64,000 nucleotides of DNA, taken from NCBI RefSeq assembly GCF_001486165.1, contig NZ_LN908977.1, positions 257,269 to 321,268 on the forward strand, in the 5' to 3' direction. Positions 43,625-59,023 of the stretch are shown here, piece by piece. This DNA comes from Bittarella massiliensis (ex Durand et al. 2017) (GTDB lineage: Bacteria; Bacillota; Clostridia; Oscillospirales; Ruminococcaceae). Each line of letters starts with the position of its first letter. The first letter of the stretch is position 1. The translations under genes and the position numbers were made by a program. Below the pieces are notes generated by a model that saw only the letters and a program-made list of their open reading frames with translations, searched no databases and was not told the origin of the DNA.

Positions 43625-45655
43625 TCAGTTGGCGTGCTCGTGCACGATCTGGCTGATGGGGGTGAAGGGCACCCCTTCGCCCGAGTAGTAGCGGCCGAAC
43701 ATCTCGTAAAACTCCAGGCGCAGCACCTGGATGCCGACCACCAGGCCCTCCAGCCCGATGACGAAGAGGTTGCCCAGGGCCACGGTGACGGCATAGCCCA
43801 CCGGCCCGAACATCCCCGCCAGGGTGAAGACCACGCTCATCATCCCCGCGTGGCTCAGGATGAAGCCACCGACGCGGAGGAAAGACATGGTGTTGGCCAC
43901 AAAGGAGATGGCGATCTCCAGCATCTCAAAGATGTTTTCCAGGGCGTAGGCGCCAAAGCCCCCTTCGGGGAAGGCGTCCTTTTTCAGCAGGAGGTTGCCC
44001 AGGGGCACCCGCATGAAGATGCAGATGATGGGGATGACGATGCAGATGAGGATGATGGGCAGGTTCAGGGAGAAGCTGACCCCCAGCATCGGCAGGCCGA
44101 TGGCGCTGATGACCGTGGCGTAGAGGACAAAGCCGGCCACCCCGTTTTGGGAGAAGAGGGCCTTGCTGTAATCGCGGTTTTTCAGCCCGATGTAGATGTT
44201 CAGGGCCATCGAGGTGAGGATGAGCACCACCCCCAGGGCCACGGCGCCGATGAGCAGCACGTTGATGGTCTGGGCGTTCATCACCTCCACCGGCTTTTCG
44301 GCAAAGCCGATGGCCCGGTACAGCGGGTCGAGGGCGTGTTCAAAGCCGAAGACCGAGCCGTAGAGGAAGCCGAAGAGGGTGGAGCTGATGCCCATGCGCA
44401 TGATGATCTCGCCCAGGCGGGACTTCTTCCACTTGGCAAAGAGGAAGCCGCCCAGCACGATCAGCAGCCCCTGGCCCACGTCTCCGAACATGATGCCGAA
44501 GAGGAGGGTGTAGGTGAAGGCCACCAGGGGGGTCGGGTCGATCTCGCGGTGGCTGGGCACGCCGTACATCTCCACGTACATCTCAAAGGGGCGGGCAAAC
44601 CAGTTGTTTTTCAGCTTGGTGGGCTTTTCGGGGCGGGTGCCCTTTTCGTGGGCCTCCTTCATCGAGTGGGTCACCAGGCCGGGCAGCATGGGGACCGCTC
44701 CGTCGTCGGACTTCTCGGCGGTGACCACCACGGTGGGCAGGTCGCCGAAGAGGGCCTCGAAGTCGCCCTCCTTCCCCGCGGGGACGTAGCCGGCGAACTC
44801 GAAGTAGTCGCCGCCGGCGAACTTGTCAAAGCTGGTGCCCACGAACCGACGCACGCCGTAGGTCTCCTGCATGAACTGGACGGTGGCGTAGTAGGAGAGG
44901 AGGGTCTCCCGCCCCTCTTCCACCAGCCGGTCGCGCTCGCCCTTGCAGCCCTCCAGGGCCGCCTGTTCCTCGGCGAGCTTTTCCTCCAGGTAGGCGGCAG
45001 CGTCCTCCGGCTCGCCGTGGAGGTAGTCGGGGATGCGCACCCGCTCGAAGTAGAGGGCCTCCATGATGGAGTCCACCTCGGCGGCGTGCTGCTCCCCGGT
45101 CAGGTAGAGGCACCACTGGTAGTTTTTGTCGCTGGAAAAGGTGAAGAGGAAGAAGGGTTTGTCCTGGTAGTGCTCCAGCTTTTTGTAGTTTTCCAGCGGC
45201 AGCCGCCCAAAGCGCACCTTCAGGTACTTGGCCTTGAACAGCTCGTCAAAACTGGTGTGAAAGCTGCGGATCATGTCCAGGTGGGAGAGGTTGAGGCGGT
45301 GTTCCTCCACCAGCTTCGCGATCTCCTTTTCCTTTTGGTCGGCCGCGTCGAACCCCTGCCGGAACGACTCCACGAACCGGCGGACATCCGCCAGATTCAG
45401 GTCGTGACTGCTGCGCTCCAGCTGGTCGCCGGGCACCGCCACGGGGGTCAACCCGGCGTCGGTGCAGGCCGAGCGCAGGGCGTCGGCCAGTTCGGTATAG
45501 GGGTTTTCGGCGGAGGCGGCCTTGGAGACCGCCCCGCTCTTGGAGGTGATCTCCTCCGGGTGGAAGTAGTCCAGCCGGCTCAGCCGCAAGACCACCTCGT
45601 CCAAATTTTCCAGGCGACCGATCAGGCTGACCAGGGTCGTCTTTTGTATTGCCAT
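43625..45655 (-). CDS. atpI: V/A-type ATP synthase subunit I (stator a-like)
   Basis: A 676-aa subunit: the N-terminal about 330 residues are soluble and coiled-coil rich (the stator arm), and the C-terminal half has about eight membrane helices (TYTLLFGIMFGDVGQGLLIVLGGFLF, and FLRVGGFILSHAGMMSVVF). It forms the ion half-channels beside the K ring. I chose ATG 45655 (MAIQKTTLVSLIG), which has AAAGGAG upstream; the ATG ten codons earlier overlaps that site. Confidence 0.93.
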   Translation of the reverse strand: MAIQKTTLVSLIGRLENLDEVVLRLSRLDYFHPEEITSKSGAVSKAASAENPYTELADALRSACTDAGLTPVAVPGDQLERSSHDLNLADVRRFVESFRQGFDAADQKEKEIAKLVEEHRLNLSHLDMIRSFHTSFDELFKAKYLKVRFGRLPLENYKKLEHYQDKPFFLFTFSSDKNYQWCLYLTGEQHAAEVDSIMEALYFERVRIPDYLHGEPEDAAAYLEEKLAEEQAALEGCKGERDRLVEEGRETLLSYYATVQFMQETYGVRRFVGTSFDKFAGGDYFEFAGYVPAGKEGDFEALFGDLPTVVVTAEKSDDGAVPMLPGLVTHSMKEAHEKGTRPEKPTKLKNNWFARPFEMYVEMYGVPSHREIDPTPLVAFTYTLLFGIMFGDVGQGLLIVLGGFLFAKWKKSRLGEIIMRMGISSTLFGFLYGSVFGFEHALDPLYRAIGFAEKPVEVMNAQTINVLLIGAVALGVVLILTSMALNIYIGLKNRDYSKALFSQNGVAGFVLYATVISAIGLPMLGVSFSLNLPIILICIVIPIICIFMRVPLGNLLLKKDAFPEGGFGAYALENIFEMLEIAISFVANTMSFLRVGGFILSHAGMMSVVFTLAGMFGPVGYAVTVALGNLFVIGLEGLVVGIQVLRLEFYEMFGRYYSGEGVPFTPISQIVHEHAN

Positions 45656-55705: not shown

Positions 55706-56110
55706 ATGGGATTTTGGGACGATTTTGCCGACACCACCAAACAGGTATTTGACTACACCGGCAACAAGGCCGACGAGTTGGTGCAGAAGGGGAAGCTCAA
55801 GTACCGCATCGAAAAGCTCAGCTACCAGCTGCGCCAGCAGCAGCGGAAGCTGGGGGCCCTGGTCTACGGGCTGAAGAAGGCCGGCAAGGAGAATGCCCCC
55901 CTGCTGGACGAGTGCATGGGGCAGATCGACGCCCTGGTGGACCAGCTGCGGGAGGCCCGCAGCCAGTACGACAGCGTGGGCGGCAGCAAGAAGATCTACT
56001 GCCCCCGCTGCGGCTTTGAAAACGCCGACTACGCCCTCTACTGCATCTCCTGCGGGCAGAAACTGCAGGAGGACGAGGGCGAGAAGGAACCCCAGCCCCC
56101 CGAGGAGTAA
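55706..56110 (+). CDS. Zinc-ribbon protein of unknown function
   Basis: A 134-aa soluble protein. A helical coiled-coil region (about 25-90; YRIEKLSYQLRQQQRKLGALVYGLKK) is followed by a CPRCGFENADYALYCISCGQKL double-CxxC zinc ribbon and an acidic tail. Similar small proteins are widespread in Clostridia without known role. ATG 55706 with AGGAGG. It precedes glnN by 52 bp. Confidence 0.75.
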   Translation: MGFWDDFADTTKQVFDYTGNKADELVQKGKLKYRIEKLSYQLRQQQRKLGALVYGLKKAGKENAPLLDECMGQIDALVDQLREARSQYDSVGGSKKIYCPRCGFENADYALYCISCGQKLQEDEGEKEPQPPEE

Positions 56111-56162
56111 GGCGGCGGGCAGAAGAGAGAAGAAGAGAGAAGACAGGGAGAGAGGTACCTTT

Positions 56163-58281
<2,119 letters not shown>

Positions 58282-58283
<2 letters not shown>

Positions 58284-58673
58284 CAGGCGCGCTCCGCGCG
58301 GCTGTTTGACAGTCGATTTGCCGCAGCATAGCTGCGGCATTTTGCATTCGCAAAACCGTCGCCTGTCCGGCCTGGGGGCGACAGGCGCGCTTTGCGCGAC
58401 TGTTTGACATCCGATTTGCCAGGGCGCTGCCCTGGCATTTTGCCTTCGCAAAACCGTTGTCTGTCCGGCCTGGGGGCGACAGGCGCGCTTCGCGCGGCTG
58501 TTTGACATCCGATTTGCCGCAGCACCGCTGCGGCATTTTGCGTTCGCAAAACCATCGTCTGTCCGGTCTGGGAGTGACAGACGCGCTTTGCGTGACTGTC
58601 TGACATCCAACTTGCCAGGGCGCTGCCCTGGCATTTTGCATTCGCAAAACCATCGTCTGTCTGGCAGCTGACT
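58282..58673. repeat. Four-copy 98-bp tandem repeat with conserved stems
   Basis: Units begin at 58282, 58380, 58478 and 58576 (exact 98-bp period). Each has a stem GCCGCAGC/GCTGCGGC (copies 1 and 3) or GCCAGGGC/GCCCTGGC (copies 2 and 4), a TTTTGC-N4-GCAAAA hairpin and a CGYCTGTC/GACAGRCG pair across the unit border, with paired substitutions that keep the stems. The period is not a multiple of 3, so the long open frame across it is not a repetitive protein. The first hairpin is placed to end glnN transcription. Confidence 0.85.
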
Positions 58674-59023
58674 TGGGGAAAGGAACAGAGGGTTGTGCAA
58701 AATTGCCGTCTGTCCAGCACAGGGAAGGTGGGCGGAAGGATTTCGCAAAACCGCCCTCTCCCCGGCGCGGGGTGAAGGGGAACAAAAGCCGCACGGCATT
58801 GCGCGTCCGCTCGGCAGAAAAAGGGGAGGTGAGCGCTGCTTGGCCGGGGATGGGGCGGCAGATAGAGGTGCTGTGCGAGATGATGACTGCCTGCCTGGGG
58901 GTACCTCCCTTTGCCTCACAGCGGGCAAAACGCCTTTCCGAAGACGGTTCCCGCCCGACGGACAGATGGACACATCTTTCCCTTTTAGTGCCGGCGGCGG
59001 GCAACAACATGGCAAAATAGGGG
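58674..59023. other. Intergenic region before the EndoQ-UvrD gene
   Basis: About 350 bp, GC-rich. No gene supported. Two near-identical motifs (GGCAAAATAGGGGA at 59011 and GGTAAAATAGGGGA at 59085) lie on either side of a terminator. Confidence 0.5.

Follow-up and report, generated by a model that had tools for sequence, protein, structure and literature searches.

What kind of element is the tandem array that follows glnN, the glutamine synthetase III gene, in Bittarella massiliensis (ex Durand et al. 2017)? The initial annotation of the window (the whole stretch of 64,000 nucleotides analysed, from contig NZ_LN908977.1) had proposed a structured RNA, a protein-binding array or a mobile repeat family, on the basis of paired changes in the stems of four units with an exact 98-bp period. 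The period is confirmed. The array consists of four ungapped 98-bp units at 58282-58673 (tandem repeat finder TRF, score 495 at period 98, 628 at period 196), and the motif ATTTTGCNTTCGCAAAAC occurs 4 times, against 0.06 expected from shuffles. A repeat protein is excluded, as had been argued, since 98 (3 × 32 + 2) is no multiple of three. The glnN stop codon, TGA at 58281-58283, overlaps the first unit; the true start of this gene is probably later than that of the mechanical open reading frame (ORF) listed in Table 1. Two decayed pieces follow the array, and beyond them, on the same strand, lies a gene whose product has UvrD helicase domains (Pfam).

Table 1. Coordinates of the array, its neighbours and other repeats mentioned in the text.
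Feature	Position or locus	Strand	Evidence or remark
glnN, glutamine synthetase III (mechanical ORF)	55893-58283	+	GSIII_N 1.1e-76, Gln-synt_C-ter, Gln-synt_C
Unit 1, hairpin type A	58282-58379	+	R2 model match 58308-58367, 60.9 bits
Unit 1, hairpin A	58282-58306	+	
Unit 1, stem B	58308-58317/58358-58367	+	
Unit 1, linker T	58318	+	
Unit 1, stem-loop C	58319-58339	+	
Unit 1, stem-loop D	58340-58355	+	
Unit 1, linker CC	58356-58357	+	
Unit 2, hairpin type B	58380-58477	+	model match 58406-58465, 58.3 bits
Unit 3, hairpin type A	58478-58575	+	model match 58504-58563, 62.4 bits
Unit 4, hairpin type B, 3′ end decayed	58576-58673	+	model match 58602-58661, 56.2 bits
Two decayed unit pieces, 31 bases each	58694-58724, 58742-58772	+	repeat family D2, 68% and 77% identity
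Short 21-bp tandem repeat, 2.1 copies	44013-44057		tandem repeat finder
Second module of genome G215	L288, L292, L294, L296, L298, L300		behind tRNA-Trp, Val, Ser, Leu, Leu, Thr

Whether taken as RNA or as single-stranded DNA, the unit is predicted to form hairpin A and then, in units 1-3, a three-way junction made of stem B, one T, stem-loop C, directly stem-loop D, CC and stem B′. In the predicted fold of unit 4, A, C and D are kept and stem B is absent. Folded as single-strand DNA (87 nt each), the four units reach z-scores of -5.9 to -7.5. The arms of hairpin C alternate as described earlier, with GCCGCAGC/GCTGCGGC in units 1 and 3 and GCCAGGGC/GCCCTGGC in units 2 and 4. Two further paired changes had been reported, and each holds in part. 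At the unit borders, the change is exact between border 1/2 (CGCCTGTC/GACAGGCG) and border 3/4 (CGTCTGTC/GACAGACG), but border 2/3 is intermediate and mispaired (TGTCTGTC/GACAGGCG). The replacement of G-C by A-T in the first hairpin of unit 4 is present at columns 6/18, but in one of two registers only; the predicted fold takes the other, with G-T there.

The alternation had also been read as the duplication of a 196-bp dimer. This holds for hairpin C only, and the other columns do not alternate: over the 77 columns outside it, units 1 and 2 agree at 69, 1 and 3 at 68, 2 and 3 at 69, and 2 and 4 at 61. Since the units are not grouped as 1+3 and 2+4 there, hairpin C behaves as a cassette. A Bittarella massiliensis contig carries the same glnN locus, 91-93% identical in its surroundings, where a unit with a B-type hairpin is followed by a second, decayed unit with an A-like one, from which we infer that both hairpin types may be older than the split of the two species. 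The two units at the matching place also make an assembly collapse, which had been named as a possible artefact, unlikely.

The family was then sought beyond this locus. With blastn (E≤1e-3) the array matches one place only in its own genome, and plain blastn against 149 relatives gave mostly short, weak matches, among them tandem copies in genome G061 and a pair in G131. The core TTGCC..GGCATTTTGC..GCAAAACC recurs in both: G061, of another genus, has it in a 94-bp tandem array, and in G131, of another family, it stands next to a tRNA; as an exact pattern it is rare, being found in 3 of 394 genomes including the window's own. The array had no match in the phages searched. Five stretches of viral contigs fitted the core pattern, none with stem pairs beyond the four it requires, and were taken as chance. 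Among genome contigs 57 stretches fitted, of which 17 stood under Clostridia names and 16 were taken as real (L050 was unused); the other 40, non-Clostridia with three Bacilli among them, were counted as chance on the grounds of taxon and stem length, although stems are longer in L048 and a few more of them.

A first covariance model, built from 17 copies of the sequence-pattern search, detected the fold in at least 78 of 394 genomes at E≤0.01 and in at least 31 at E≤1e-6, the window's own being one of the 31. A second model found it in at least 11 of 391 genomes across the class at 1e-4, and a phylum-wide survey in at least 4 of 398, one being the own genome and two being weak. These surveys give lower bounds, as G063 was missed by the first-model survey and had 10 matches in the class-wide one. 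By these counts the family is concentrated in the window's own family and order, with a patchy distribution. In 19 chosen carriers the copies number 1 to 60 per genome at E≤1e-3, the richest having 60, 47, 25, 24, 21 and 17; G398, whose 47 copies lie at places identical to the 47 of G076, looks like the same genome. The own genome gave 20 matches at E≤0.01, which, less one antisense echo and one isolated weak match, leave 18 copies in six tandem loci with spacings of 98, 109, 117, 133, 139 and 175. A family of many copies per genome is shown by these searches.

The fold is conserved across this family. An alignment of 17 hand-chosen rows, from a pattern search that left all but the foot of C and the stem of D free, had a covariation score of 0.436, against 0.131 in shuffles. 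In an 81-row alignment, fitted to the covariance model, the score was 0.662, compared to 0.145 for shuffles and no more than 0.131 for slid versions; two-sided changes were found at 21 of the 23 core pairs (81 distinct rows), and 93% of cells were paired. Not all measures followed: out of five, two in the 17-row alignment and one in the 81-row alignment did not exceed shuffles. The number of two-sided pairs in the 17-row alignment was as high in 75/500 shuffles, and further pair types were not above shuffles in either alignment (117/500 and 481/500 as high). The two-sided changes at 21 of 23 core pairs indicate that the fold is selected or actively maintained, and the constraint on secondary structure first deduced from four units is strongly supported by related genomes. 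Unpaired parts are conserved as well. Before C, 109 of 126 parsed copies have a linker of a single nucleotide, and this is T in 46 of 47; the linker after D is CC in 63/126 and ACC in 26/126; stem-loop D is mostly TTTTGC..GCAAAA. Hairpin A stands directly before stem B in 104 of 136 upstream stretches, compared to 50 of 680 shuffled ones under a stricter score. A looser test for it (123/126 pass) is weak, because 372 of 680 shuffled upstream stretches pass too.

Paired changes in stems need not mean RNA, and a simple count of G-T against A-C pairs helps to separate DNA palindromes from RNA stems. On the plus strand, the element helices of 126 copies contain 18 G-T and 61 A-C among 3959 pairs, 23 of the A-C cases belonging to one site in one subfamily. 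The G-T share is 0.45%, compared to 7.9% in tRNA stems (58 of 731 pairs, 34 tRNAs) and 3.2% in terminator-like hairpins (34 G-T and 12 A-C of 1078 pairs, 104 hairpins) of the fetched loci; in the tRNA control only the G-T rate is a fair comparison, since no A-C occurs there and ARAGORN may mark only the pairs it allows. Counted as distinct sites per genome group, the core helices have 22 A-C against 10 G-T on the plus strand, that is, no excess of wobble pairs on this strand and a weak one on the minus strand. These counts therefore leave no RNA signature on the plus strand, and at most a weak one on the other. A C-to-T bias on one strand could be the source of the asymmetry. The element stems are near-perfect DNA palindromes. 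Rfam at curated thresholds gave no match on the elements, one run matching only tRNA and tmRNA, and the best score on an element in a permissive search was 27.2 bits, for a threshold of 70.

Copies often stand at the 3′ ends of genes, including tRNA genes. In the own genome, where context was taken from Pfam-supported genes (the context given by mechanical ORFs proved unreliable, with an antisense one across glnN), 5 of the 6 arrays lie behind such a gene on the same strand: glnN and genes for a response regulator, a sulfite-reductase-like protein, a methyltransferase and DUF4180, with a terminator-like hairpin between the last of these and its array. The sixth, L177, is antisense to both neighbours. 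At L175, by reading, hairpin A takes in the last codons of the host gene together with their inverted copy; a terminator overlapping the stop codon would look alike. The share of fetched copies near tRNAs varies (several genomes hold more copies than were fetched): 8/10 in G063, 4/7 in G262, 2/3 in G153, 1/4 in G215, 3/38 in mixed others, and none in G000 (17 fetched), G156 (23), G076 (15), G225 (20) and G319 (11).

The most regular placement is that of G131, all 13 copies of which lie behind tRNA or tmRNA genes. Ten have a tRNA within 300 nt and lie 3′ of it without exception, at a distance of 51-68 nt and antisense to it; two of the other three are behind tmRNA, and one is the farther copy of a pair behind tRNA-Ala. 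Five pattern-found copies from five other herbivore-gut genomes are placed likewise, as far as those copies go. The hosts of this type come from rumen, reticulum, jejunum and horse faeces. The arms of these copies match the neighbouring tRNA. At 8 of 15 tRNA loci the last 21 tRNA bases, which we take to be positions 56-76 in standard numbering, recur unchanged and in direct orientation behind the element; at the remaining seven, 11 to 19 of the 21 bases match, the best match in 800 shuffled flanks being 15. The tmRNA tail copy agrees at 19 of 21 bases. An inverted piece of the tRNA is also present at all 15 loci, with 12 to 17 of 17 bases matching (shuffled mean 9.8, best 13); other tRNAs' tails match it at up to 15, since tRNA tails are alike. 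In this type local host sequence is repeated around the element.

In G063 four near-identical copies of 110 bp each (96-100% to the query copy) lie at unrelated sites, behind intact tRNA-Pro, Glu, Pro and Leu genes. They start at the base after CCA in the orientation of the tRNA, and a fifth copy, of 77% identity, does so behind tRNA-Ser. Two of them, one behind tRNA-Pro and the one behind tRNA-Leu, stand between CCA and a terminator module which, in a congener, directly follows the CCA of several tRNAs. G215 has a second repeat module, GCAGCGTGACGCTGCACCC, with a terminator-like hairpin in most cases, directly after the tRNA CCA (Table 1). Other arrangements were seen. By reading, what stands before the elements at L255 and L272 is no tRNA gene but just a tRNA-like 3′ tail, of about 17 and 22 nt, that ends in CCA. 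At L119 (G153), a copy of the 3′ part of tRNA-Tyr lies ~240 nt behind the intact gene, the element coming immediately after it. On the minus strand of L284 and L286, the same three-way fold with a long stem D directly precedes a 25-aa hydrophobic frame (MDYISLILIIIILALIDEIIKNMKK, MDYISLILIIIILAIINEIIKNMKK) that resembles a small membrane-peptide gene; at L284 it is preceded by a sigma70-like promoter (by reading). The copies tailored to tRNA and tmRNA genes amount to a natural experiment on how a small DNA finds the 3′ ends of genes.

Of the three options in the initial annotation, a mobile repeat family fits best, and the structured RNA is argued against. The near absence of G-T, the occurrence of copies in either orientation to neighbouring genes, and the scatter of near-identical copies favour an element acting at the DNA level. 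A fold that works in the RNA of the preceding gene, whether by terminating transcription, by directing processing or by binding a protein, with tandem copies raising the dose, would account for the strong covariation and for the five own-genome arrays behind a same-strand gene, the window's starting right at a stop codon. Stem-loop C followed by ATTTT is terminator-like on the plus strand in all four units, and a -10-like TA(T/C)A(A/C/T)T precedes the core at constant spacing in 13/24 copies of G156 and 10/20 of G225 (3/15 in G076). We nevertheless consider such a 3′-UTR element rather unlikely. G-T pairs are 7-18 times rarer than in the control stems, and A-C exceeds G-T on the plus strand of the core helices in all six genome groups having either. 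The T tract has at most four T and then a G in 80 of 81 rows, and the G131 type already has terminator-like hairpins with T tracts between tRNA and element (by reading), with 15 of 15 tRNA-near copies antisense to the tRNA.

The tail copies, exact at 8 of 15 tRNA loci and nearly so at tmRNA, could instead be the attachment core, from T-loop to CCA, of a miniature integrative element that a site-specific recombinase inserts at tRNA and tmRNA 3′ ends, arrays being stacked integrations. That tmRNA is used besides tRNAs, and that tRNA-like tails precede L255 and L272, would suit this, but a single genome uses a wide range of tRNAs, no tail copy follows the element in the G063 type (by reading), and in many carriers, among them the window's own genome, copies lie away from tRNAs (0/17 near tRNAs in G000, 0/23 in G156), so that we hold it improbable. 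Near-perfect arms without G-T excess would also arise in functionless, palindrome-rich repeats whose arms are kept matched by fold-back template switching, and whose resemblance goes back to old duplications only; hairpin A of L175 would fit such copying. The conservation of the unpaired T, the CC linkers and stem D across families of the order, and the patchy, multi-copy distribution, make this very improbable.

There is thus about an even chance, in our estimate, that the array arose when a miniature, non-autonomous DNA element of a dispersed, REP/MITE-like kind was amplified in tandem at this locus. Near-identical dispersed copies, precise junctions at gene ends, repeated host sequence and near-perfect arms point to miniature mobile DNA followed by tandem amplification. 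Copies would move, or be copied, through a trans factor recognising the folded single strand, and a piece of host sequence on both sides would then allow tandem multiplication by unequal exchange or slippage. The near-perfect state of the arms may be due to recognition of the folded form, or to fold-back copying in which one arm serves to correct its partner; the inverted tRNA pieces and hairpin A of L175 suggest that fold-back copying may take place at gene ends. Any effect on the upstream gene, such as weak termination or protection of the mRNA 3′ end, would be secondary.

Certain observations go against mobility. The window's array was already at this locus before the split from Bittarella massiliensis and has not moved since, the majority of the copies examined in G156, G076, G225 and G319 lie away from tRNAs, and the regular 51-68 nt spacing behind tRNAs could reflect a host function instead. 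No excision and no true orthologous empty site was found, the tRNA-Leu 3′ flank of the congener being different DNA. By reading, the G063 element has no terminal inverted repeats, its ends being GCCGAATAA.. and ..TTAAATAGTCA, and no clear target duplication, at most CA being shared. Two candidate mobilisers were rejected for want of association with carriers: a Y1 transposase domain was found in 5 of 14 carriers (none in G063, G153 and G262) and 6 of 14 non-carriers, and a reverse transcriptase in 3 of 14 and 5 of 14, respectively. That the family forms a new class of mobile DNA in several families of one order, with exact insertion where genes for tRNA, tmRNA or proteins end, making its outer arms by inverted fold-back copying of the target end, and moved by neither Y1 transposase nor reverse transcriptase, is a doubtful proposal, which we put forward tentatively. 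A large, structurally defined repeat family would be added to gut bacteria. The searched parts of open-licence PMC papers contained no description of it.

How does the family compare with known systems? MITEs and miniature elements such as Correia repeats are small, non-autonomous and dispersed. The G063 element, of about 110 bp, is likewise small and dispersed, but its ends show no terminal inverted repeats, and the fold is conserved across families of an order. The rtT RNA or tyrT repeats of Escherichia coli likewise stand in tandem downstream of a tRNA gene and each carry a copy of its 3′ end; in contrast, the elements here match no Rfam family, and the genes they use include many tRNAs, tmRNA and protein genes. 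Among intergenic stem-loop families and terminator-like hairpins there are stable hairpins 3′ of genes, some of them repeated (PMC1590033). The present elements are also repeated, stable hairpins 3′ of genes, but they form a three-way junction, and their complementary A stretch comes after the T tract, not before it. REP, BIME and REPIN sequences, mobilised by RAYT (TnpA-REP) transposases, are described as short dispersed palindromic repeats whose tandem clusters carry flanking DNA (PMC3733652). Here 9 of 14 carriers have no Y1 (HUH) match. By eye, the alignment shows no GTAG or CGTC tag at a fixed place across the family, and CGTC ends stem B in most G156 copies. As with REP, BIME and REPIN, the elements are dispersed palindromes that form tandem clusters and reach high copy number (up to 60 per genome), in a larger unit built around a three-way junction.
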